Shown in pieces: positions 47,028 through 63,618 of a DNA stretch of 64,000 nt. Origin of the DNA: Desulfatibacillum sp. (GTDB lineage Bacteria > Desulfobacterota > Desulfobacteria > Desulfobacterales > SpSt-501). The stretch covers positions 267,113 through 331,112 of the forward strand of contig DYEU01000018.1 of the NCBI GenBank assembly GCA_020725555.1. The letters are read 5' to 3'. Under the pieces are notes generated by a model that did no database searches, had not been told where the DNA came from, and saw only the letters and a list, made by a program, of their open reading frames with translations. Numbering within the stretch: position 1 is the stretch's first letter; each line of letters opens with the position of its first letter. The position numbers were made by a program, and so were the translations under genes.

Positions 47028-48191
47028 TCAGCTCGCCTCGATCCCCGCCGCGCGGATGCCGCGCACGTAGTAGGCCGGGTCGTGGAGAAAGCTCAGGAAG
47101 ATCACCAGGAAAGCGATGCAGCCCTCGACCATAAGCGGCTTGTTGGCATAGAGCAGATCGAGTTGCTGCCGGAGCCGGTCGCCGTCGGCCGGGGCGAAGT
47201 AGATCGTGAACAGGCCGTCCAGCATGCGCCTGCCGTCGGGCCGGGTGACGAGGTCGCTGCGGCCGCTGTGGCAGTATTCCATGGCGTCCAGGACGAGCGC
47301 GCGTTGCCGCCCCAGGTCCTTCAGGTGGTAGCCGAGCAGGTGCATGAGCGAGCGCTGGGCCTCACGCAGGCTGGCCTGGGCGAGGGCGTCGAAGAGCGCC
47401 CCCCGCCCCGCGCTCTCCGGGAGGGCCGGCGCCTGGCGGATCAGCGAGAGCAGGACCGCGTTCTTGAAGAGCTGGTGGAGGCGGCGGGCGCCGTTCATCA
47501 CCGTCGCCGGCGCGTGCTCCGACCGCGGGCGGTAGCCGGGGTAGTGCGGGACGAAGAGCAGCTCGAAGAGGTGCTGGAAGCAGTCGATGCCCGCAAGCGG
47601 GTCCTCGAGGTCGATGCGCATGTCGAGGGTGTTGTCCAGCCGGTCGGCGAGCTTCACCTCGACGAGATCGGGGCACCCGCCGGCGGCGTTCTCGAGCAGC
47701 CGGCCGATGTAGGCCGTGTAGGGCTCGCCGGCGATCCTCGTGAGCCCCTGCAGGCGTCTGACGAGCCCGGCCTCGTCCCCCGGCGGCAGCCGGTCGAGCA
47801 TCTCGTAGAGCGTCTCCTCCAGCTCGCGCCATTCGCGGGGCTCGAAATCCACGGGCTTCACGTCCTCCTGGATGTCGTGGAAGAGCACCGCGAGCAGGCT
47901 CTCGACGCGGGGGGTCTCCTGGGCCCGGGCCATCAGGGCGCAGGCCCGCAGGGGGTGCAGGACGGCCATCGGCCCCAGGCGCCGGCGCTTGTGGCTGTAA
48001 GCCCGGTAGAGGTAGCCCAGGGCCTCCATCAGCAGGGCCCGCCGGGCGCGGTCGCCCTCCTCGGCCGCATCGAGCCGCTTGCCCGCGAGAATGTAGGCGA
48101 CCACGTTGGAGCGGTTGAGCGCAGCCGCGCTGAGGTTGTAGTGGAGCACCGCGGAAAGCTGGAAAAACTCGTTCAGGTCGAAGAGCGCCAT
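47028..48191 (-). CDS. RelA/SpoT-like HD-domain protein without synthetase domain (387 aa)
   Basis: The N-terminal half matches the HD fold of RelA/SpoT hydrolases: His79 in VLHPLRACALM, FHDIQED with His105-Asp106 and Glu109-Asp110, and VKLADRLDN with Asp183. The ligand set looks complete, so a hydrolase is likely. No synthetase, TGS or ACT domain follows. The C-terminal 190 residues are helical and unrecognised, ending with a hydrophobic GCIAFLVIFLSFL stretch. It follows an HDOD gene by 8 bases. The ATG at 48191 with GAGGTG upstream is preferred. Alarmone or nucleotide hydrolysis is a guess from the fold. Confidence 0.8.
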   Translation of the reverse strand: MALFDLNEFFQLSAVLHYNLSAAALNRSNVVAYILAGKRLDAAEEGDRARRALLMEALGYLYRAYSHKRRRLGPMAVLHPLRACALMARAQETPRVESLLAVLFHDIQEDVKPVDFEPREWRELEETLYEMLDRLPPGDEAGLVRRLQGLTRIAGEPYTAYIGRLLENAAGGCPDLVEVKLADRLDNTLDMRIDLEDPLAGIDCFQHLFELLFVPHYPGYRPRSEHAPATVMNGARRLHQLFKNAVLLSLIRQAPALPESAGRGALFDALAQASLREAQRSLMHLLGYHLKDLGRQRALVLDAMEYCHSGRSDLVTRPDGRRMLDGLFTIYFAPADGDRLRQQLDLLYANKPLMVEGCIAFLVIFLSFLHDPAYYVRGIRAAGIEAS

Positions 48192-48199
48192 GGGGCACC

Positions 48200-49042
48200 T
48201 CACGGCCGCGGGGGGTCCAGGCCGTCCAGGTCGCCTCCCACCGCCGCAGCGAGCGCGCGCAGCTCGGCGGACGCGAGCCCGAGGAATTCCCGCGCGCCCG
48301 GCTCGAAGGGGTCCTCCCCCGGGGCGATCCCGGGGCAGCCCGCGAGGCAGGCCACGCCGTGGCCGGCGTGCACCAGGAAGGCGAGCGCGCTTCGCTCCGA
48401 GCGCGAAGGCGCGTGGTGGTGCTGGATCGCCTTGACCAGGGATTCGGGATAGCGCCAGAAGCGGCAGGCGAGCGCCATGACCTCGGCGTGGTCCAGGCCG
48501 AGCCGCTCGCGCTCGAAGGCCGGGGTCACGGCCCCGGCCGCGGCCGGCCCCGGGCCGGCCTCGCCGAGGAAGGGGTCGAGGATCACCTTGCCGGCATCGT
48601 GCAGCAGGGCGGCCACGAAGGCCTCCTCCTCGGCCCCCGGGAAGCGGGCGCGCGCCAGCCGCCGGGCGGCCAGGGCGCTGGCGAGCGCGTGGCGCCAGAG
48701 GTCGCGGGGGGCGATGCGGTAGCTTTCGAGCTCGCGCTCCATCCAGACCGAGGCCGCCGAGAGCGTGAGCAGGTCGGACAGGGTGCGGAAGCCGAGCAGG
48801 AGCGCGGCGTGGGTGACGGAGGCCACCTGGCCGCCGACCCCGAAATAGGCGGAATTGGCGAGGGCGAGCGTCTTGGCGACGAGCGCGGGGTCCTGTTCGA
48901 TGACGCGGACGAGGTCCCGGCTCCCGGCGTCGGGGTCGGCGAGAAGTTCCCGCGCCTTGAGGATCGCCTGCGGCATGGGCGGGAGTCGGACGAGGCGGCG
49001 GAGGATTTCGCTTTTCAGGTTCCCCGGCCTGGGGTGTTCCAC
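48200..49042 (-). CDS. HDOD-domain protein (280 aa)
   Basis: HDOD proteins are signalling relatives of HD domains. The N-terminus has LVRLPPMPQAILKARELL and ALANSAYFGV; AALLHDAGKV (His148-Asp149) is retained, and HHHAP follows later, so parts of the HD site survive. GTG start with a GGAGGGG site 5 bases upstream. It heads a two-gene unit with the RelA/SpoT-like HD protein. Target unknown. Confidence 0.9.
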   Translation of the reverse strand: MEHPRPGNLKSEILRRLVRLPPMPQAILKARELLADPDAGSRDLVRVIEQDPALVAKTLALANSAYFGVGGQVASVTHAALLLGFRTLSDLLTLSAASVWMERELESYRIAPRDLWRHALASALAARRLARARFPGAEEEAFVAALLHDAGKVILDPFLGEAGPGPAAAGAVTPAFERERLGLDHAEVMALACRFWRYPESLVKAIQHHHAPSRSERSALAFLVHAGHGVACLAGCPGIAPGEDPFEPGAREFLGLASAELRALAAAVGGDLDGLDPPRP

Positions 49043-49242: not shown

Positions 49243-50691
49243 ATGACGGACCCCGGCAACGTTCTCCGGATCTTCGAGGAAATCAGCCGCATCCCCCGCT
49301 GCTCGGGAAACGAGGAGCAGGCCGCGCGCTGGTTCGAGCGTCGGGCCGCCGCCCGCGGCTGGGCGAGCCGGCGGGACGCCGCCGGCAACCTCCTCATCCG
49401 CGTGCCCGCCTCGGCCGGCCGGGAGCGCGCGCCGGCGGTCGTGCTCCAGGCCCACCTGGACATGGTCTGCGAAAAGACGCCCGACTCGCCCCACGACTTC
49501 ACCCGCGACCCGCTGCGGCTCGTGCGCGAGGGGGACTGGCTGCGGGCCGAAGGCACGACCCTCGGCGCGGACAACGGCGCCGGCCTCGCCCTCGCCGCCG
49601 CGCTTGCCGAGCGCGAGGCGCTCGACCACCCGCCGCTCGAGCTCCTCTTCACGGTGGACGAGGAAACCGGCCTGAGCGGGGCCAAGCGCCTGGAGCCGGG
49701 CTTCCTCACGGGGCGGCTCCTCGTGAACCTGGACTCGGAAACCGAGGGTGTCTTCACCGTCGGCTGCGCGGGAGGGGTGGAGAGCCGGATCGGGCTTCCC
49801 CTGGAGCGGCAGGCGGAGCCCGCGGGCGGGGTGTGCCGCGCCCTCGTCGTCGGCGGGCTGCGCGGCGGCCATTCGGGCATCGACATCCACCGCCCGCGGG
49901 CCAACGCGATCCGCATCCTCGCCCGGCTGCTCGACGAGGTCGCCGACCTGCCGGGGGCGGCCGTGTTCGCGCTCGCGGGCGGAAGCCGCCGCAACGCCAT
50001 CGCGCGGGACGCCCGGGCCGAGATCGCCTGCCGCCCCGAGGACGAGGGGCCCCTCGCGCAGCGGCTGGCCGAGGCGGAAAAGCGCCTGCGCGGCCTCTAC
50101 GCCGAGGAGAGCGGGATCTTCTGCAGGCTGGGTCCCCCGGCGGCTCCGCCGCCGGGGGAGCGGCCGCTCGCCCGGCCCTTTCTGCGCCGGGCGCTCGACC
50201 TGCTCCTCGCCCTGCCGCACGGGGCGCTCCTGCCGGAGGCCGGCTTCGAGGGCCTCGTGCACAGCTCCGCCAACCTCGCCGTGGTCGAAACCGCCGCCGC
50301 GGGCCTCACCGTGGTCACCAGCCAGCGCAGCCTCTCCCGCGAAGGGCTCGCGGAGGCCTCGAGCCGCGTGCGGGCGGCCGCCGCGCTCGCCGGGGCCCGG
50401 GTCTCCTTCGAAGCCGAATACCCGCCGTGGACGCCCGACCCCGACTCCGCGCTGCTCGCCCGCTGCCGCCGGGTCTATTCCCGCTGCTTCGGCTCCGAGG
50501 CGCGCGTGCGCGCGATCCATGCCGGCCTCGAATGCGCCTGGATCGGCGCGATCTACCCCGGCATGGACATGGTCTCCGTCGGGCCGACGACCGAGAACGC
50601 CCATTCGCCGAGCGAGCGGCTTCACCTGCCCTCGCTCACCCGGCTCGAGGCGTTCCTCGCGGCGCTGCTTGCCGATCTCGCCTCCGCCTAG
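49243..50691 (+). CDS. pepD: Aminoacyl-histidine dipeptidase (M20 family)
   Basis: Cytosolic non-specific dipeptidase of the PepD type, 482 residues. Motifs: EISRIPRCSGNEEQ near the start, the zinc site AHLDMVCEK (about 73-81), TLGADNGAGLA, the catalytic VDEETGLSGAKRL, and SETEG. The lid domain contains GGHSGIDIH. A clear AAGGAG precedes the ATG. Its TAG stop shares CTAG with the opposite-strand LonB stop. Confidence 0.95.
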   Translation: MTDPGNVLRIFEEISRIPRCSGNEEQAARWFERRAAARGWASRRDAAGNLLIRVPASAGRERAPAVVLQAHLDMVCEKTPDSPHDFTRDPLRLVREGDWLRAEGTTLGADNGAGLALAAALAEREALDHPPLELLFTVDEETGLSGAKRLEPGFLTGRLLVNLDSETEGVFTVGCAGGVESRIGLPLERQAEPAGGVCRALVVGGLRGGHSGIDIHRPRANAIRILARLLDEVADLPGAAVFALAGGSRRNAIARDARAEIACRPEDEGPLAQRLAEAEKRLRGLYAEESGIFCRLGPPAAPPPGERPLARPFLRRALDLLLALPHGALLPEAGFEGLVHSSANLAVVETAAAGLTVVTSQRSLSREGLAEASSRVRAAAALAGARVSFEAEYPPWTPDPDSALLARCRRVYSRCFGSEARVRAIHAGLECAWIGAIYPGMDMVSVGPTTENAHSPSERLHLPSLTRLEAFLAALLADLASA

Positions 50692-52949
50692 CCCGCCGCC
50701 GCGCCCCGCCGCGCCAGGGTCTCCAGGTCCCGGCGGATCCGCTCGGCCATGCGCGCCTCGAGCGCCTCGCGGTCGATGCCCATGAGGATGTGGTAGGCGT
50801 TGTATTTCGTCTTGCAGAAGAAGACGTCGAAGGGCAGGCTTCTCCCCGCGCCGCGGTAGATGCGGATCCCCGGCACGTCCCCGCGGCGGATGAACTCGGC
50901 CTCGGCGTTCACCAGAAGCGGCTCCACGTCGTGCTTGTTCAGCCAGGGCACGCAGGCCCCCTCCATGCCGAGATCGGGGTCGAGGATGGAGCGGATCTTC
51001 TCGGCCACCCCGCCCACGGCGAGGATGATCTCCCCGGTCAGCGAACCCGTGACCCCGTAGCGGGGGTTCACCGGCTGGCGGATGAAATCCGACACGAGCG
51101 CGATGTCCATCGCCACCGAGGCGGAATCCCCCTCCACGCCGTCGTGGGCCTGGATGTATTCGACGTGCATCTCGTAGCCCACGCCGGCCGCGCCGAGGGC
51201 GTCGAGCACGCGCTTGATCGAGGCGCGCACGTTCTGCGCCGCCGCCTTGGCGATCTCCCCCATCCTGCCCGGGGCGGTCACGCGGTCGGCGCCGCCCGCG
51301 GTCACCTGGCCGTGGATGGGCAGCGGCTGGCCGAACATCTGCCCGCTCGCCGTGCTGTGGATGACGGCCAGCCCCACGACGTAGCCGATCGAATCGCTCA
51401 GGGCGGCGATGTATTTCTTGAGGTACTTGCGATGCTCGATCAGCTCGCGCGCCAGCCCGCCCTCCAGGCTGAGGTGCTCGCCGAGGGCGCGCCGGATGTG
51501 GGCGGGCTCGACGCGCGGGGCGTTTTCGAAAATGGCGGCGAACTCGGCGGCGAGGAGGACGCCGTTGATCGGCCGCAGGATCGCGCTCAGCTTGCCGTCC
51601 GAGGCGCGGCAGCGCAGCTCGCGGACGATCTCCATGACCGCGGCGCGCGAGAGCGGGCGGGCCTCCATGCGGAACTCCCCCGGCAGCGGCCGGCCGAAGA
51701 TGTGCTCGCAGCGGCGGCGCACGCCCTCGTGCCCCTCGGCGGCGAGCACCTCCCCCCAGCAGCGCCGGAACTCCCCCTCCAGGCGGCGGACCTCCTGGGC
51801 GGCGTACTGCGCCACGGCGCGCACCGCCTGCGGGGTCTCGGGGACCGCGCTCTCCATGTGCACGATCTCCCCCTTGTCCTCGATGCGCGAGAGAAACGCC
51901 CCGTCCCCCTCCTGCTGCAGGGCGGCCAGGGTGTCGTGGTTGCAGCAGGCGATGAGGATGTTCTCGGCCCGCAGGGGGTTCTCCGAGCGGTCGGCCGCGC
52001 CGCTGCCGGAGTTTCGCCCGCCCTCGAGGTAGTACTTGCGGTTCTGCATCACCTCGAGCAGCTCGGCCAGGTACCCCACGCGCACGAGGGTCTTCAGCTC
52101 GTCGATGTAGAGGATGGGGGCGGTCGCGTGGGCGCCGAGAAAGGCCCGCTTGTGGCAGGGGGTGTGGAGGTTGCCGGACTGGTAGGGGTCGTGGCGGAAG
52201 CCGCCCTTCATGTTGCGCGCGCTCGGCTCCGCGATCCGCGCCATGAGGCGCTGTTCCTTGCGCGGGTCGTGGAGCACCTCGGGGATCTGGTCCAGCAGGG
52301 GCTTGAGGTCGTGGCGGCCGCCCCCGGCGTTGTCCTGCTGGATCTTCTCCTGGACCCGGATCTGGGTTTCCTGGAGGTAGAGAAAGACGGCCCCCATGCC
52401 CGCCAGCCCGGCCGCGATCCAGGCCGCGGGGTGGACGAAGCCCCCGGCCGCGGCCGCCAGCCCGGCGGCGAGCAGGCCCCGGCGCACGCGCCGCACCGCC
52501 CGGCGCGTCTCCTCGAGGCTGAATTCCTCGACGCTTCCCTGCGCGGTCTCCACCGCGCGGCGGATCTCGGCCAGCGCGCGGTCGAGCGCCTCCGGCGCTT
52601 CGTAGGCGACGCGGATGTGGTTGCGGTCCTTGCCGGGAAAGGCGGCGATCGCCTCGCGCGGCCGCAGGATGTCGCCGAGCGAGCGGTCGAGCACCTCCTC
52701 GAACATCTCCGCCAGCAGCGACTTCCCCGTGCCGGGGCGGCCGACGAGGAGAAGGTGCCCGCGGTTCTGCGCGACCTTGCGGATGGCCGACTTCGCCCGC
52801 TCCTGGAAGATCACGCGCTCGATGGGGTCCGCGGGGAGGGTCACCTCGGAGGTGTCCTCGAAGAAGGCGAGGCGCTCCTCGAGGCTCCGGGGGTAATCGA
52901 GCAGCTCGCGGATCCACTCGTAGTCGCTCGGGCGGTAGTCACTCGACAT
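50688..52949 (-). CDS. lonB: Membrane-anchored LonB-type ATP-dependent protease
   Basis: A 753-residue AAA+ serine protease of the archaeal LonB type, here in a bacterium. Walker A GRPGTGKS (70-77); an insertion in the ATPase domain with two hydrophobic segments (about 158-192) that should anchor it in the membrane; Walker B-like ILYIDELKTL (279-288); and a C-terminal Lon domain with the Ser609 (EGDSAS) and Lys651 (GGVAEK) dyad. It lacks the N-terminal substrate domain of LonA. It is last in an operon with an ATPase, an HDOD protein and an unknown protein, overlapping the latter by 11 bases. Bacterial proteins of this type are often annotated as Lon protease. Confidence 0.93.
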   Translation of the reverse strand: MSSDYRPSDYEWIRELLDYPRSLEERLAFFEDTSEVTLPADPIERVIFQERAKSAIRKVAQNRGHLLLVGRPGTGKSLLAEMFEEVLDRSLGDILRPREAIAAFPGKDRNHIRVAYEAPEALDRALAEIRRAVETAQGSVEEFSLEETRRAVRRVRRGLLAAGLAAAAGGFVHPAAWIAAGLAGMGAVFLYLQETQIRVQEKIQQDNAGGGRHDLKPLLDQIPEVLHDPRKEQRLMARIAEPSARNMKGGFRHDPYQSGNLHTPCHKRAFLGAHATAPILYIDELKTLVRVGYLAELLEVMQNRKYYLEGGRNSGSGAADRSENPLRAENILIACCNHDTLAALQQEGDGAFLSRIEDKGEIVHMESAVPETPQAVRAVAQYAAQEVRRLEGEFRRCWGEVLAAEGHEGVRRRCEHIFGRPLPGEFRMEARPLSRAAVMEIVRELRCRASDGKLSAILRPINGVLLAAEFAAIFENAPRVEPAHIRRALGEHLSLEGGLARELIEHRKYLKKYIAALSDSIGYVVGLAVIHSTASGQMFGQPLPIHGQVTAGGADRVTAPGRMGEIAKAAAQNVRASIKRVLDALGAAGVGYEMHVEYIQAHDGVEGDSASVAMDIALVSDFIRQPVNPRYGVTGSLTGEIILAVGGVAEKIRSILDPDLGMEGACVPWLNKHDVEPLLVNAEAEFIRRGDVPGIRIYRGAGRSLPFDVFFCKTKYNAYHILMGIDREALEARMAERIRRDLETLARRGAAAG

Positions 52950-54093
52950 GGCCGACCCCCGTGCTCTCTTCCAGCACGTACAGGCGACCCGCCTCGGTCG
53001 GGACGGCCCGCCGGCTGATCTCCGCGTAGACCGACGGCAGCGTGCGGCGCAGCGGCTCGAGCGCCCGCAGGTCGTGGAGCACGCAGCGGATGAAGACCAG
53101 CTCCTCGCCGCCGTCGGCCGCGGGCCGGAGCCCGCTCAGGGTGACCGCCGTGCGCATCGTCTGGAGGGCCGGGCGGATCAGGCTCCCGAAGCGGGCGGGC
53201 CCCGCCTCCCCGGGCAGGAGCTCCCGGAAGATCGGCGGCAGCGCGGTTTCGGCCTCGGCGGCCACCGCGGCGGCCGGCTCGAAGGCGAGCCGCAGCGGCC
53301 GGAGCGCGCCCTCCCGGAGGGACGCCAACGCCCGGCACATCTCCCGGCACTGCCGCAGGCTCGCTTCCAGGAGCATCAGGTAGCGCACCTCCTCGGCCGC
53401 GGCGAGCCGGAAATCGAGCCTCCCCGAGGGCGTCAGGACGCAGGCCGCGGCCTGCCCCGCCCGGCCGTAGGCCACGAGCGGCACCCATCCCCCGTCCCCG
53501 AAGGCGCCCGGCGGGCAGGCGCGCAGCTCGAAGACCCCCTCGGCGCTGTGGGCGCGGTGCACCACGATGCGCACCTCACGGCCGACGTTCGCGGCGAGGT
53601 AGTGCAGCCGCTCCTCGGTCGTCCCCAGGAGCTTGAGGTAGGTGTAGCCGTTTCCCGGGTCCTCGCAGACCCCGACGACGTGGGCGAGCCGCCGCGGGTC
53701 GAGGCGGGCGAGCCGCCGCTGGAAGGGGTCGTAGGGGCGGAGCGCATCGGCCAGCTGCTCGAGGTGCGCCCGGAGGTCGGGGTCGCGAAGCGTCGGGAGC
53801 CTGAGGCGCAGCCCGGAAAGGAGGAGCTCCCCCGAGGGCGGCCTTCCCTGGAGCCGGCGCGTGAGCCGCGGGAAGCGCAGGCCGCGCCGCGCCGCGTGGA
53901 TTTCGGCGCCGATCAGCCGCTTGCGGATCTCGATCGGCCCGGGGTGAAGCAGGTAGCGCGCCAAGGGGGAGATGCGGTAGGCCTTGGCCGGCCCCGGGTC
54001 GGCTTCGGGGTCGATCGCCCGGAGGTCGGCATCGAACCGGCGCGGCTCGCTGATCACCCACGGCCCGCCGGACGTAGCGGCGCTCTCCCGCAT
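52939..54093 (-). CDS. Unknown protein between HDOD and LonB genes (384 aa)
   Basis: I recognise no family. The protein is soluble and rich in Arg, Leu and Ala. After the start MRESAATSGG there is a basic segment (IRKRLIGAEIHAARRGLRF), then a mixed alpha/beta region with GVCEDPGNGYTYLKLLGT, the part least like random sequence, and a C-terminal half with PIFRELLPGEAG and VYAEISRRAVPTE. No signal peptide or membrane segment. It begins 8 bases after the HDOD gene and ends 11 bases inside lonB, so it should be co-expressed with both. It could be an adaptor or substrate-selecting factor for LonB; that is only guilt by association. Confidence 0.78.
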   Translation of the reverse strand: MRESAATSGGPWVISEPRRFDADLRAIDPEADPGPAKAYRISPLARYLLHPGPIEIRKRLIGAEIHAARRGLRFPRLTRRLQGRPPSGELLLSGLRLRLPTLRDPDLRAHLEQLADALRPYDPFQRRLARLDPRRLAHVVGVCEDPGNGYTYLKLLGTTEERLHYLAANVGREVRIVVHRAHSAEGVFELRACPPGAFGDGGWVPLVAYGRAGQAAACVLTPSGRLDFRLAAAEEVRYLMLLEASLRQCREMCRALASLREGALRPLRLAFEPAAAVAAEAETALPPIFRELLPGEAGPARFGSLIRPALQTMRTAVTLSGLRPAADGGEELVFIRCVLHDLRALEPLRRTLPSVYAEISRRAVPTEAGRLYVLEESTGVGHVE

Positions 54094-54101
54094 GCCTTCC
54101 C

Positions 54102-54950
54102 TCACGACCGGGATCCCAAAAGAGGCGAATCCTCGAGCTCGATTTCGAGCCGGGCGAGATCGATCTCCGAGACCCTGAGGGCCCTCGCCTCCGGCGTCGC
54201 CGCCGGCGCCTCGGTCGGGGGCGGCGCAAGGCCTAAGCCCGCCTTGTTGCAGACGCGGTCGGCCAACCGCACCAGCTGGAGCAGCGCCGGGTCGCCCTCG
54301 CCGGCGGGCCGGTGATGATCGCGCACGACACCCGCGTAGACCTCGGGGAGGTCCCAATGCTGCATCAGGCGGTAGCCTTCCGCGGCGTGCAGCCGGTCCA
54401 TGGCCTCCTCGAGGAGGGCCGCGGAGAGGGGGGCCGCCTGCGGTGCGGGGCGGGGCAGTTCCTCGATCACGGTGAGCACGAAGAGCTTGCCGACGTCGTG
54501 CAGCAGGCCGGCGAAAAACGCCTCGTGCACCAGGGCATGCAGCCCGCAGGTGCGCGCCAGCCAGTGGGCGGCGATCGCCGCGCCGAGGGCATGCCGCCAG
54601 AGCTTGCGCATCAGGCCGTGAACGAGGGGGTTCGCCGAGCGGAACTGGTTCTCGTGGGTCACGGTCATGACGATGTTCGCCACCTCGTTCACCCCGAGCC
54701 GCACGATCGCGTTGCGCACCGTGGTGACCTGGTTCAACCCCTTGTAGAAGGCGGAGTTCGAAAACCGCAGCACCTCGGCCGTGAGGGCCTGGTCGCTGCC
54801 CACCAGCTGCTCGATGCGCCGCGGGTCGGGGTCCTCCTTGGAGATCTCCTGCTGGATGCGGGCCGCGGTGGCGTGAAAGACCGGAAGCCGCGCCTGGCCC
54901 GAGACGATGCGTTGTGCCACGAGGTCCACCAGGGAGGGTCCCGTTCGCAT
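54102..54950 (-). CDS. HDOD-domain protein (282 aa)
   Basis: Second HDOD protein of the window, more complete than the first. LPVFHATAARIQQEI and VLRFSNSAFYKGL define the N-terminal helices; HEAFFAGLLHDVGKLFVL (His-Asp pair) and RDHHRPAGEGD retain HD-like residues. A C-terminal segment (about 240-282) is disordered and acidic. The start is at ATG 54950, with GGAGG inside the end of the upstream ATPase gene, so translation is coupled (2-base gap). Confidence 0.92.
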   Translation of the reverse strand: MRTGPSLVDLVAQRIVSGQARLPVFHATAARIQQEISKEDPDPRRIEQLVGSDQALTAEVLRFSNSAFYKGLNQVTTVRNAIVRLGVNEVANIVMTVTHENQFRSANPLVHGLMRKLWRHALGAAIAAHWLARTCGLHALVHEAFFAGLLHDVGKLFVLTVIEELPRPAPQAAPLSAALLEEAMDRLHAAEGYRLMQHWDLPEVYAGVVRDHHRPAGEGDPALLQLVRLADRVCNKAGLGLAPPPTEAPAATPEARALRVSEIDLARLEIELEDSPLLGSRS

Positions 54951-54952
54951 GG

Positions 54953-56860
54953 TCAAACCTCCAGCAGACGGCTCACCTCGGAAAGCGGCCGCGGCCGGCA
55001 AAGTCGCGGCAGGCATCGCTGCACTTCCTCGAGGGTCGTCGTGCCCCGGGCCGCCTTGAGCAGCCCGTCCTCGAAGAGCGTCGCCAGCCCCGCGGTCTCG
55101 AGCGCCATTCGCCGCAGCTCCCGCGCGCCGCGCCGCTCGATCACCGCGCCCCGCAGCTCCTCGTTCAGCACCAGGAGTTCGAAGACGCCCACCCGCCCCT
55201 GGTAGCCGCTGTAGCGGCATTGCGCGCAGCCGCGGCCGCGGCGGAAGGCCGCGGGGGAGGCCTCCTCCGGGGCGATCCCCAGGCGCTGGAGCGTCGCGGC
55301 GGCGCCGCGGTCGGGCTCGGCGCACGCCGGGCACACCCGCCGCAGCAGCCGCTGGGTGATCAGCGCGCTCACCGTGGAGGCGATCAGGTAGGCCTCGAGG
55401 TTCATGTGCAGCAGGCGGATGAGCCCCCCGATCGTGTCCTCGGCGTGGAAGGTGGTGAGCACCTTATGGCCGGTCAGGGCGGCCTGCACCGCGGTCTCGG
55501 CCGAAAAGGCGTCGCGCACCTCGCCGATGAAGAGGACGTCGGGGTCCTGCCGCACGATGTGGCGCAGGGTCTCCTCGTAGGTGAGCTGGATGCGCGGGTT
55601 GATGGAGCACTGGGAGATCCCGTCGATCAGGGCCTCGACGGGCTCCTCGGCCGTGAGGATGCTGACCTGGGGGTCGTTCAGGTGGCGGATGCAGCTGTAG
55701 ACGGTCGTGGTCTTCCCCGAGCCGGTCGGCCCGGTCACCAGGATCACCCCGCCGGGGAGGCTCAGGGCCTCCTCGCGGAAGCGCTCGAGCAGCCGCGGGG
55801 CGAGCCCCAGCTCCTCGAGCGGAATCAGGGCGCCGCGGCGGTTGAGCAGCCGCAGGGCGATCTTCTCCCCGTGGACGGTCACGTAGAACGAGGCCCGCAG
55901 ATCGAGGGAGGCGCCGTTGTGCTCGAAGGTGAAGCGCCCCCCCTGGTGGCGGCGTTTCTCGGTGATGTCGACGTCGCACATCACCTTGAGCCGGTTGGTG
56001 ACCGCGCCCATCAGGGCGGCGGGGAAGTCCTCGACGTGCACGAGGACGCCGTCCTCGCGGAAGCGCACGCGGGCGTGCTCGGCGAAGGGTTCGATGTGCA
56101 CGTCGCTCGCCCCGCGGGCGACGGCCGCCGCGAGGATGCGGTGGACCAGGGCGATGACGCCCTGCTCGTCGGCCGGGGAGATCTTCTCGCGCTGCCGCGC
56201 GAGCCGGGCACGGCGGACCGCCCGCTCGACCGCGCCGCGCCGGGCGATGGCCACGATCAGCTGCGGGCCGAAGAGCTCGCGGGCGGCGGCGAGATCCCCC
56301 GCGTCCAGGGGGTCGACGAAGGCGACCAGGGGAAGTCCGTTTTCGAACCGCAGGGGCACGAATCCCGGGGCGGCGGTCCAGGCAGGGGGCATCCGCTGGA
56401 ACAGGCGCGGGTCGATCTCGGCGAAGTCGGGCTCGACGAAGGGATAGCCCAGCTGCAGGGACAGGACCTCGATCAGGGTGCGCTCCTCGACGAGGCGCCG
56501 CTCGAGCAGCACGTCGACCAGGCGCCGGGGGGGCCGGGCGTCGCGCTGCGCGGCCCGCGCCGCCTCGAGCGCCTCGCGCGTGAGGATCCCGAGCTCGGCG
56601 AGGAGGACCCCGAGATCGAGGGGCCCGGCCGCGGCGCGGATCAACTCCCGGATCTGCTCCTCGCCGACGAGGCGCAGCTCCTTGAGAATCTCGATCAGGG
56701 GCCGCGGGGTCTCGAGCTTGGCCTGGACGCGGCGGGCGTAGGCCACCTGTTCGGCGGACACCCGGCCGGAGGCGACCAGGCGTTCCACGATGTCAAACGC
56801 GGCGCCCTGGCCGCCGGCCGCCGGCCGGGCCTCGCCGGGCAGCGTCCTGCCTGCGGGCAT
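54953..56860 (-). CDS. PilB/GspE-family secretion ATPase without pilus neighbours
   Basis: A 635-residue AAA ATPase of the type IV pilus/type II secretion class. Three N-terminal repeats resemble MshEN-type domains (about 51-75, 80-100, 112-140), a class known to bind cyclic di-GMP. The NTPase core has Walker A TGPTGSGKT (376-384), an Asp box, Walker B DPDVLFIGEVRD (439-450) and the His box near 466-472. A zinc site follows with Cys510, Cys513, Cys545 and Cys548. No pilin, platform, or secretin gene is near. ATG at 56860 is preferred over GTG at 56866. It heads the HDOD-unknown-LonB operon. Confidence 0.94.
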   Translation of the reverse strand: MPAGRTLPGEARPAAGGQGAAFDIVERLVASGRVSAEQVAYARRVQAKLETPRPLIEILKELRLVGEEQIRELIRAAAGPLDLGVLLAELGILTREALEAARAAQRDARPPRRLVDVLLERRLVEERTLIEVLSLQLGYPFVEPDFAEIDPRLFQRMPPAWTAAPGFVPLRFENGLPLVAFVDPLDAGDLAAARELFGPQLIVAIARRGAVERAVRRARLARQREKISPADEQGVIALVHRILAAAVARGASDVHIEPFAEHARVRFREDGVLVHVEDFPAALMGAVTNRLKVMCDVDITEKRRHQGGRFTFEHNGASLDLRASFYVTVHGEKIALRLLNRRGALIPLEELGLAPRLLERFREEALSLPGGVILVTGPTGSGKTTTVYSCIRHLNDPQVSILTAEEPVEALIDGISQCSINPRIQLTYEETLRHIVRQDPDVLFIGEVRDAFSAETAVQAALTGHKVLTTFHAEDTIGGLIRLLHMNLEAYLIASTVSALITQRLLRRVCPACAEPDRGAAATLQRLGIAPEEASPAAFRRGRGCAQCRYSGYQGRVGVFELLVLNEELRGAVIERRGARELRRMALETAGLATLFEDGLLKAARGTTTLEEVQRCLPRLCRPRPLSEVSRLLEV

Positions 56861-56978
56861 GGTCACGGATCCTCCTCGACACGGGCGTCGGCCGCCGCAG
56901 GCAAAAGGGGCCCCCGGAGGCCACGGCCTTCCTCTGGAGGAGGCTATCGGCCGGATTCGCCCCGGCCTTGAGGACGTC

Positions 56979-60052: not shown

Positions 60053-60260
60053 ACGGATCGCCGGCATCCCGGGGAAGTGCTACCGCCCCGAGGGCCGCGG
60101 TCGCCGCAAGCACCCCTGCCGCGACTGCTTTTCCTGCCAGCTTTGCAGCGAGGAGCGCTGTGCCCTCTGCCGGGCGGGATGCCGCGGGGGAGGGGACGAC
60201 GGAACGGCGGGACGGCGCGCGGGCGGGGAAGGCCCCGGCCGCACGCCGCGAGAGGATTAG
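60042..60260 (+). CDS. Small cysteine-rich protein (72 aa)
   Basis: A tiny basic protein with eight cysteines in 35 residues: CYRPEGRG, then [14 protein letters not shown] and a final C. This looks like a zinc or iron-sulfur knuckle. GTG start with AAGGAG upstream. It overlaps the membrane protein gene by 11 bases and its TAG stop overlaps the htpX TAA stop on the other strand. The dense, regular CxxC spacing argues that it is a real gene. Function unknown. Confidence 0.72.
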
Positions 60261-61195
60261 CGTTTTCCGGAAAGCCGCTCCCAGAGTTCGCGCGCCGCGG
60301 CCTGGGGGTCCCCGGCGGCCGGGGGGCTTTCGCCGCCGGCGCGGGAGCCCCCCCGCAGCCCGCGCAGGCGGGCAATCCGCTCTTCGAGCGGCGGGTGGGT
60401 GGAAAAGAGGCTCATCAGGCTTCCGCCGGAGAGCGGGTTCACGATGAACATGTGCGCCGTCGCCGGTTCGGCGTTCATCGGGATCCGCCGCGACCAGGCG
60501 CCCAACTTTTCCAGCGCCCGCGCCAGCCCCTCGGGCGAGCCCGTGAAGGAGGCGCCGGTTGCGTCCGCCAGGTACTCGCGCGATCGCGAGATCGCCATCT
60601 GGATGAGCATCGCCCCGATCGGCGCGAGGATCGCGGTCAGGATCAAGCCCAGCCCCCCGCCCCCGCCGCCTTCCTCGTCGCGGCGGCCGCCGCCGAAGAC
60701 CGCCGCCCAGCGGGCCATGTTGGCGAGCATGAGGACGGCGCCCGCCAGGGTGGCCGCGATGCTGCCGATCAGAATGTCGCGGTTTCTCACGTGGGCGAGC
60801 TCGTGGGCGAGAACGCCGGCCAGCTCCTCGCGGTTCATCAGGCGGAGCAGCCCCTCGGTGACCGCGACCGCGGCGTGCTCGGGGTTGCGCCCCGTGGCGA
60901 AGGCGTTGGGGGCCTCGGAGGGGATGAGGCAGACCCGGGGCATGGGCAGGTTGGCCCGGCGGCAGAGTTCCTGCACCATGCCGTAGAGCTCGGGAGCCTC
61001 CGCGGGGCCGACCTCCCGGGCGCCGTAGAGACGCAGGACGATGCGGTCGGAGAACCAGTAGCTGAAGAAGTTCATCGCCGCGGCGGCAAACAGAGCGACC
61101 ACCATGCCGTCGCGGCCCCCGATCATCTGGCCGATGACGAGGATCAACCCGGTCAGCAGCCCAAGCAGCAGCGTGGTGCGGATGCGGTTGTTCAT
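60257..61195 (-). CDS. htpX: Protease HtpX homologue
   Basis: Membrane zinc metalloprotease for quality control of membrane proteins, 312 residues. Two N-terminal membrane segments (about 7-45), the zinc motif HELAH (131-135), two further hydrophobic segments (about 143-165 and 183-205) separated by a Gly-rich loop, and the third ligand Glu in [11 protein letters not shown]. The last 30 residues form a flexible tail. Confidence 0.96.
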
Positions 61196-61491: not shown

Positions 61492-63618
61492 ATGACGCAC
61501 GGCGGTTCCGAGCTGAAGGAGGGTCGCGAGGAAGCCCCGTCCGCGAACGAGGGGGAAACCGCGGTCACCGCCGAGGAAAAACGGCTTCTTCTTTCCCCGC
61601 CGCCCCCGCCACGGCCGCAGCCGGGACGAAACACCCCGCCCCCGCGCATCGGCCGGGAACTGCTCATCAACCGCATCCATCTCGCCCATTTCCGCGATCA
61701 GCCGCTGGCCATCGAGTTCACGCACCGCCGGTTCGGCAGCGTCGTCCGGCTCGCCGTGCGGCCCCTGCCCGTGGTGGGCGGCGTCCTCGAATGCCTCTGG
61801 GTGGATGCGCCGGCCGCCGCCGGGGTCCTCTCCTCCCATGCCCTCACGGCGCTCATCGTGCCGCGGGGTGAGCGTCACCTGCGCGCCGAGGTCCGGGTGC
61901 TGGCCGCCGACGGCCGGGGCTTGCGGCTGGAGCTCCCCGATTCCGCCCTCGAGATCAACGAACGCCGGATCGACCGCCTGCCCGCATGCGAGGTCGCGGC
62001 CCGGGTCCTCCAGAACTCGGGCTCCTTTGCGGGCCGGCTGATCGATTTCAACGCCCTCTCCTTCCGGGTGGCGCTCGTCGCCGCCTCGCCCCAGACCTTC
62101 GCCTGGATCGACCCCGAGCAACCCGTGCATGCCGTTCTCTTCCGCGGCGAGCAGACTTTCTTCGCCGGAGAATGCCGCATCACCCGCCTCGAGCGCGAGG
62201 CGGAAGGCGGCACCTGCGTCCTCGTGCCCGCGCACCGCCACAGCCGGCGCTTCCGGCGGGACGAAGTCCGCAGCCAGCGCCTGGTGCTCGTCCCTTCCCC
62301 GAACCTCGTCTTCCTTCACCCCTTCACGGGAAAGCGCGTCGAGCTCAAGGTCACCGACCTTTCGGGCTCGGGCTTCGCCGTGGAGGAGGAGCTCTCCCGC
62401 GCCGTGCTGCTCCCCGGCCTGATGCTGCCCGAGGCGCAGCTCGATTTCGCCGGGAGCTTCCAGATCGCCCTGAGCGCCCAGGTGGTCTTCCAGCGCCTCC
62501 CCGCCGGCGGCGGCGAGGCCGGGCTCGTGCGCTGCGGCCTCGCGCTGCTCGACATGCCCCCCGGCGACCACGTCCGGCTGCTCGCCCTCCTCAACCAGAG
62601 CCGGGACCGCAACGCCTACCTCTGCAAGGAGGTCGACCTCGAGGCCCTCTGGGATTTCTTCTTCGAGACGGGCTTCATCTACCCCGACAAGTACGCGCTG
62701 ATCGAAAAACACAAGGGGGAAATCCGCGAGACCTGCGCCAAGCTCTACACGCGCAGCCCGGAAATCGCCCGGACCTTCCTCTACCAGAAAGGGGGGGTCA
62801 TCCTCGGGCACCTGGCGATGATCCGCTTCTGGCCCTCGGCCTGGCTGATCCATCACCACGCCGCCCGAAAATCCGCCCTCAACCGGGCCGGCCTGAACGT
62901 GCTCGACCAGCTCTGCCGCTTCATCCACGACGGGTTGCGCTTCCGCAGCCTGCACATGGAGCACCTCGTCTGCTACTACCGCCCCCAGAACCGCTTCCCG
63001 CAGCGGGTCTTCGGGGGGTTCGCCGAGGAGACCGGCGACCGCCGGGTCTGTTCCGTGGATCCCTTCGCCTACCTCACCCTCGGCGAAACGCCCGCCGCCG
63101 AGGGGGCCCTGCCCGCGGGCTGGGTTCTCGCCGCCGCCGAAGACCCGGATCTCCTGGAGATGAACCGCTTCTACGCGCACGCCTCCGGCGGCCTGATGGC
63201 GGAGGCCTTCGACCTCACGCCGGGCAGCCGGCGCGACGAGGAGCTCGCGGAGCTCTTCCGCCGCCTCGGCCTGCGGCGCGAGCGCCGCCGCTTCGCCCTG
63301 CGGTTCCGCGGCCGGCTGAAGGCCCTGATCGTGGCCCACCTCTCCGACATCGGCCTCAACTTCTCCGAACTCACCCACTGCCTGACGATCCTGGTGACCG
63401 ACCCCGAAGGCATCGACGCGATGGTCCTGCGCTCGGCGCTGCAGGCCGCCGCCCGCCGGGCGGGCCTCACGGAGATCGTGGCCCTCGTCTACCCGGAGAC
63501 GGCCGTGGAGCGCGCCGGGCTTGCGGCCGGCAAGGGCTATCACCTCTGGATCGTGCGCACCTACGAAGCCGAGCAGCCGTTCCAGAAATACCTCAAGCGC
63601 TTGACGCGCATGCCCTGA
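61492..63618 (+). CDS. PilZ-domain protein with C-terminal acyltransferase-like region (708 aa)
   Basis: A large soluble protein. After a Pro-rich start (about 30-55) there is a degenerate first PilZ/YcgR-like domain (RRIDRL near 158, DFNALS near 185). A canonical cyclic-di-GMP PilZ domain follows, with RxxxR at 256-260 and DLSGSG at 289-294. The C-terminal half (about 380-708) has FFETGFIYPDKY, HHHAARKSALNRAGLN and an ending resembling an N-acyltransferase fold; the last is uncertain. It has a strong promoter and no close neighbours. A cyclic-di-GMP-controlled enzyme or regulator is likely. Confidence 0.85.
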   Translation: MTHGGSELKEGREEAPSANEGETAVTAEEKRLLLSPPPPPRPQPGRNTPPPRIGRELLINRIHLAHFRDQPLAIEFTHRRFGSVVRLAVRPLPVVGGVLECLWVDAPAAAGVLSSHALTALIVPRGERHLRAEVRVLAADGRGLRLELPDSALEINERRIDRLPACEVAARVLQNSGSFAGRLIDFNALSFRVALVAASPQTFAWIDPEQPVHAVLFRGEQTFFAGECRITRLEREAEGGTCVLVPAHRHSRRFRRDEVRSQRLVLVPSPNLVFLHPFTGKRVELKVTDLSGSGFAVEEELSRAVLLPGLMLPEAQLDFAGSFQIALSAQVVFQRLPAGGGEAGLVRCGLALLDMPPGDHVRLLALLNQSRDRNAYLCKEVDLEALWDFFFETGFIYPDKYALIEKHKGEIRETCAKLYTRSPEIARTFLYQKGGVILGHLAMIRFWPSAWLIHHHAARKSALNRAGLNVLDQLCRFIHDGLRFRSLHMEHLVCYYRPQNRFPQRVFGGFAEETGDRRVCSVDPFAYLTLGETPAAEGALPAGWVLAAAEDPDLLEMNRFYAHASGGLMAEAFDLTPGSRRDEELAELFRRLGLRRERRRFALRFRGRLKALIVAHLSDIGLNFSELTHCLTILVTDPEGIDAMVLRSALQAAARRAGLTEIVALVYPETAVERAGLAAGKGYHLWIVRTYEAEQPFQKYLKRLTRMP

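Follow-up and report, generated by a model that had tools for sequence, protein, structure and literature searches.

A co-encoded candidate partner of a divergent LonB-type membrane protease in Desulfobacterota and Nitrospirota

In an operon of Desulfatibacillum sp., the gene of an uncharacterised protein, here named X, directly precedes the gene of a LonB-type protease with a predicted membrane anchor. We assign a probability of about 55% to the reading that these genes form a two-gene core, in which X would be a cytosolic protein dedicated to a divergent, membrane-anchored enzyme of the LonB type, and would most likely act as its regulator or as a substrate adaptor. That X acts together with LonB is well supported. 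The operon is genuine, yet made up of two conserved pairs, X-LonB and ATPase-HDOD. They are separable, since each occurs without the other.

Structure of the operon

The window, that is, the whole analysed stretch of 64,000 nucleotides, has a GC content of 70.9% and belongs to contig 12 of a genome of 3.59 Mb. The features considered are listed in Table 1. The preliminary description reported four close-set minus-strand genes, and the gene calls agree with it in coordinates, gaps (2 nt between the ATPase and HDOD genes, 8 nt between the HDOD and X genes) and overlap (11 nt between X and LonB). The range given there, 52939-56860, was right as to the gene positions but left the LonB gene outside, and the second HDOD gene with the HD gene after it, relatives of which are found near X-LonB elsewhere, went unmentioned. 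The identities of the components were borne out by Pfam: T2SSE and MshEN in the ATPase, HDOD in its partner, Lon_C and AAA in the protease, and no family in X. The start of the ATPase gene was called at an ATG; a GTG at 56866 has a better Shine-Dalgarno box. The run is bordered by a divergent aminotransferase gene (57065, plus strand) and a convergent gene ending at 50691, thus the co-directional unit comprises exactly four genes. The set is not an accident of one genome, as the four genes are found together in all five members of the genus with enough contig.

Table 1. Genes of the operon and associated neighbours in the window
Feature	Coordinates	Strand	Remarks
PilB/GspE-family ATPase	54953-56860	-	635 aa; Pfam T2SSE 4.6e-107, MshEN 1.3e-12
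HDOD-domain protein, ATPase partner	54102-54950	-	282 aa; Pfam HDOD 1.3e-45
Protein X, uncharacterised family	52939-54093	-	384 aa; 11-nt overlap with LonB gene
LonB-type membrane-anchored ATP-dependent protease (predicted)	50688-52949	-	753 aa; Pfam Lon_C 1e-10 and AAA
Second HDOD protein	48200-49042	-	280 aa; associated neighbour, outside the four-gene run
Protein with weak HD-domain match	47028-48191	-	387 aa; associated neighbour, next after second HDOD

Three further observations concern the surroundings of the operon. The second HDOD gene and the HD gene (47028-49042) lie 1.6 kb past LonB, and an H...HD..ED pattern in the HD gene is reminiscent of SpoT-type hydrolases. The region 61492-63618 encodes a genus-conserved protein of 708 residues having no Pfam match, whose motifs RRDEVR and DLSGSG (RxxxR and DxSxxG-like) recall PilZ. 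A gene at 60257-61195, HtpX-like (M48) membrane protease by eye, is conserved near the operon in the genus.

Distribution and linkage of X and LonB

The presence of X and that of LonB coincide. In the sample of the order (146 genomes), 37 had X and 36 had a LonB relative at E 1e-60 or better; the two sets agree bar one genome, where X is cut by the contig end (Fisher p about 2e-33, n=146, uncorrected for kinship). The X and LonB searches match the same eight of 297 genomes sampled across Desulfobacterota and the same five of 198 in the Nitrospirota sample, including one very divergent pair. Thus about 630 genomes (same order, Desulfobacterota, Nitrospirota) contain both genes or neither, save for the X at the contig end; these counts are from samples, and the LonB searches scored the best few candidates per genome. 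The host genome has further Lon-type genes elsewhere, and X at this locus only.

A scan of public genome contigs yielded 62 X loci, whose labels were Desulfobacterales, Deltaproteobacteria, Nitrospirota, Deferribacteres or Proteobacteria. At the 60 loci where the contig reaches, LonB is without exception the next gene after X. At 55 of these the two frames overlap, the stop codon of X lying beyond the start of LonB, in most cases by 8 or 11 nt. No natural fusion of the two was seen among the 60 loci, and none of the other neighbouring genes is present throughout. X evolves about 2.5 times as fast as LonB (mean pairwise identity 38% and 67%, respectively), and the distances of the two proteins correlate (r 0.876, uncorrected for shared ancestry).

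The preliminary description had proposed an undescribed system. This stands for X-LonB, a conserved unit of which no description was found in the open-access papers searched on LonB in sulfate reducers and on HDOD proteins with pilus ATPases. It does not stand for one fixed four-gene system, as the pairs are separable.

Features of protein X

Nothing consistent was found for X in Pfam, NCBIfam, PADLOC or PHROGs, and no Pfam family consistently matches the 26 aligned members. A PHROG phosphatase match of one member, at 0.006, was judged to be due to chance, and a defence system was rejected because the PADLOC matches are generic P-loop or HD only. A profile search of PDB with X gave nothing at E below 0.5. 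No transmembrane segment is predicted.

The AlphaFold2 model of X is a mixed alpha/beta structure with pLDDT 84.6 (88.8 for the C-terminal half alone). The best fold match of the whole model by VIA is ribosomal protein uL3, at Z 7.3 over 87 residues, and that of the C-terminal half is a designed cystatin fold, at Z 5.6. The score of the whole model is in the range common for matchless models, neither match is convincing, and a new fold is not claimed.

Conservation in X is highest in two stretches, EYRISDxARYLLxP towards the N-terminus and SEAGRFYLLDSIxG near the C-terminus. Invariant polar residues are few (S42, Y47, C143, H340, Y372), and this makes it less likely that X is an enzyme. A fast-evolving protein having neither transmembrane segments nor a family match would fit a specificity factor better.

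Proteins proposed to act in an analogous way are SmiA, HspQ and LarA, each a dedicated protein directing or activating a Lon protease; passages of PMC10665427 name these as the few known Lon modulators. X differs from them in having no family match (by Pfam and NCBIfam searches), in being strictly co-encoded, and in its partner, which is of the LonB type rather than a LonA enzyme. In the passages of PMC10665427 about them, none of the three is presented as a partner that is always encoded together with a LonB-type protease.

One alternative is that LonB has X as its principal, regulated substrate, destroyed until a signal stops this and itself acting as the effector. The strict linkage and the frame overlap would also fit an X that is the main substrate of LonB or a protein that LonB keeps low; the fast evolution of X and the conserved SEAGRFYLLDSIxG, at a common degron position, point the same way. 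However, no such LonB is found without X in about 630 genomes, which fits a required partner better, and X has no match among DNA-binding or enzyme families by which an effector role could be explained. We consider a substrate role unlikely.

Features of the protease

The protease has Walker A at residues 70-77 and Walker B near 279-284, both conserved throughout the family. About 200 residues separate the two motifs, and the insertion there has one strong hydrophobic stretch in all sampled members, by predicted topology; in the protein of the window this is a hydrophobic hairpin at about 155-193. The catalytic residues are Ser609 (GDSAS) and Lys651, and a C-terminal extension follows after about residue 676. 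D608, S609 and K651 are invariant in all 56 aligned sequences, with Asp directly preceding the catalytic Ser.

The distance between the catalytic Ser and Lys is 41 residues in each of the 56 sequences, whereas the rule for LonB is exactly 42 (PMC9569914). The score against the curated LonB model TIGR00764 is 236.5 bits, below the cut-off of 516.6. The best PDB match is archaeal LonB of Thermococcus onnurineus (3k1j, 2.6e-52). By these sequence features the protease is of the LonB type, but, given the spacing and the sub-cut-off score, it is classified as divergent and not filed as a standard LonB.

A B-type centre together with an inserted anchor marks true archaeal LonB, and bacterial members of the group have no anchor domain (PMC9569914). 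Like archaeal LonB, the protein of the window combines an AAA+ module with a Lon protease domain behind it, carries an Asp in front of the catalytic Ser, and has a hydrophobic insertion located between the two Walker motifs. Unlike it, the protein is bacterial, has the 41-residue spacing and about 75 extra C-terminal residues, and is always accompanied by X. In Haloferax volcanii, lonB is co-transcribed with a CAAX-protease-like gene (PMC9263693), whereas the genes considered here are paired with X. LonBA of Bacillus subtilis is also a membrane-associated bacterial Lon lacking the LonA N-terminal domain; however, it has an A-type (Pro-Ser) centre and no inserted anchor (PMC9569914), as opposed to the B-type centre and hydrophobic insertion seen here.

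The ATPase-HDOD pair

The ATPase (T2SSE, 358 bits) contains Walker A (GPTGSGKTT), Walker B and a tetracysteine motif, CxxC...CxxC. Three MshEN-like N-terminal repeats had been claimed, and three repeats of a degenerate MshEN type indeed start near residues 22, 82 and 113. The scores against the PilB and GspE models are nearly tied and both below the cut-off (435.8 bits against 675.65 and 432.3 against 630.25, respectively). In the tree, which included no characterised PilB of other organisms, the ATPase falls in a clade apart from the GspE, PilB-like and TPR-type ATPases of the host genome (split support 1.00). By these scores and this placement it is not an ordinary PilB or GspE. The T2SSE core with its three motifs and the MshEN-type N-terminus are shared with PilB, MshE and GspE, whereas the degenerate cyclic-di-GMP motifs, the HDOD partner and the lack of platform or pilin genes alongside are not. 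As had been noted before, no pilin or platform gene lies beside the ATPase; the platform (T2SSF) genes of the genome occupy other contigs. As PilT/PilU, PilC-type platform and other PilB-type genes occur elsewhere in the genome, it is possible that the ATPase powers a pilus encoded elsewhere.

The HDOD protein matches PF08668 with 155.7 bits (cut-off 22.9). Its ortholog (E 1e-40 or better) was found in 23 genomes of the order, in 19 of them directly downstream of a T2SSE ATPase gene; one more has an ATPase relative with a broken Walker A (GTESSAKTS, locus L163). The absence of the Walker A consensus from this gene (L163:4559-6520), which also lies beside the HDOD ortholog, suggests a non-motor role in that lineage.

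Several genomes with ATPase-HDOD have no X-LonB, and many with X-LonB have no ATPase-HDOD. Both pairs occur together in 14 genomes, more than expected (Fisher p 8e-5, and 0.006 at the family level, uncorrected for kinship).

Neighbourhoods of X-LonB in other lineages

MshEN or PilT-family ATPase genes lie beside X-LonB in at least three settings. ATPase-HDOD is 3 kb from X-LonB in L049 and L052. In L060, L086 and L100, X and LonB are followed by the gene of an ATPase from another clade, which carries MshEN and cyclic-nucleotide-binding domains, and then by a zinc-ribbon HDOD gene. In L063, LonB faces a convergent PilT gene, behind which comes an MshEN-like gene; the convergent PilT gene is also seen in L062, as far as the contig reaches. 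The chance of three independent cases among 15-30 lineages is roughly 0.005-0.03, an estimate that is post hoc, assumes about eight ATPase genes per 3.6 Mb, and counts lineages on a LonB tree that was built quickly and where the taxonomy of the bins is not reliable. A motor ATPase gene is absent from the surroundings of most X-LonB loci, and the link to motors is therefore not a general one.

In several clades, HDOD genes are no more than about 3.5 kb away from X-LonB. In other lineages, relatives of the second HDOD gene are situated downstream of LonB at a distance of 0.1-2.6 kb. The second HDOD gene is followed by the weak-HD gene also in L041 and L050, in the latter directly after LonB.

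Some neighbours are recorded as separate observations. The PilB-type ATPases just downstream of LonB that combine MshEN with a C-terminal cyclic-nucleotide-binding domain are L060:5419-8720, L086:3589-6887 and L100:10989-14287. In L071, L073, L087 and L099, X-LonB is preceded by MotA/MotB-like genes, at about 0.1-2 kb from X, and followed by genes for a histidine kinase and a zinc-ribbon HDOD protein. L097, taken by gene size for a locus with neighbouring ATPase-HDOD, actually has topoisomerase and DprA genes.

Another possibility, with a probability as low as that of the substrate role, is that the four products form one system, either with the ATPase and HDOD proteins controlling X-LonB, or with X-LonB controlling an ATPase-powered pilus or secretion motor. 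The constancy of the four genes in the genus, the three settings above and the family-level co-occurrence of the pairs are consistent with it. On the other hand, it is opposed by the genomes with either pair alone and by the post hoc nature of the clustering estimate. It is very improbable that X is an unrelated housekeeping enzyme grouped with LonB by transcription only: operon membership by itself is no proof of common function, but the patchy yet perfectly matched presence and absence across phyla, the constant order and overlap, and the few invariant polar residues of X argue against it.

The weakest alternative is a cyclic-di-GMP-responsive operon with the ATPase N-terminus as the sensor, as the preliminary description had suggested: the Pfam MshEN match and a sub-threshold match to the NCBIfam model of the cyclic-di-GMP motif (33.4 bits, cut-off 38) are in its favour, but the ATPase fails both the strict and the relaxed patterns of PMC5013675 (two 24-residue motifs with a 5-residue spacer) in both motifs, and this makes it very improbable. 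Motif 1 starts with DLG, not RLG, with Asp for the first Arg; motif 2 reads RLV, with Val and Arg replacing two Gly, the Arg at a position that calls for Gly or some other small residue; and the spacer is seven residues. Some ATPase orthologs pass motif 1 and one passes motif 2, but none of the listed relatives passes both. Thus binding of cyclic-di-GMP by the ATPase of the window is unlikely, as both motifs fail even the relaxed pattern.

Possible mechanism and significance

Under the preferred reading, with X as the dedicated partner of LonB, the two proteins would be made together from overlapping frames; the overlap suggests translational coupling, and X would then be present in proportion to LonB. 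X may bind LonB as an adaptor or activator, and either gate it or feed it selected membrane or membrane-proximal proteins, the target being probably located at the membrane. A role in membrane-protein turnover is plausible, judging from sequence. In the genus, X-LonB appears to have been joined into one operon with the other, separately conserved pair, in which a PilB-family ATPase of the MshEN type is accompanied by an HDOD protein, and the target or signal may involve this pair; in other lineages a similar connection uses different ATPase and HDOD genes. More tentatively, the link could be that components of a surface-filament or secretion motor, or its signalling proteins, are degraded in a regulated manner. 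The role of X as adaptor, activator or substrate, and any pilus link, are what we infer from these data.

A bolder version, which we regard as doubtful, is that X founds a new family of obligate partners making a LonB-type membrane protease signal-gated, repeatedly wired in several lineages to MshEN-type pilus or secretion motors and HDOD signalling proteins, so that proteolysis of a surface-motor complex would be controlled.

X-LonB is found in sulfate reducers and Nitrospirota, and the membrane LonB type is usually archaeal. A LonB-type enzyme with an anchor insertion is thereby documented in bacteria, whose LonB-group members are described as lacking it (PMC9569914). The number of known Lon adaptors and dedicated regulators is called surprisingly small in PMC10665427. 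If the proposed role of X is true, a never-separated, co-encoded partner of a bacterial membrane-anchored LonB would be a new, directly testable form of Lon control.
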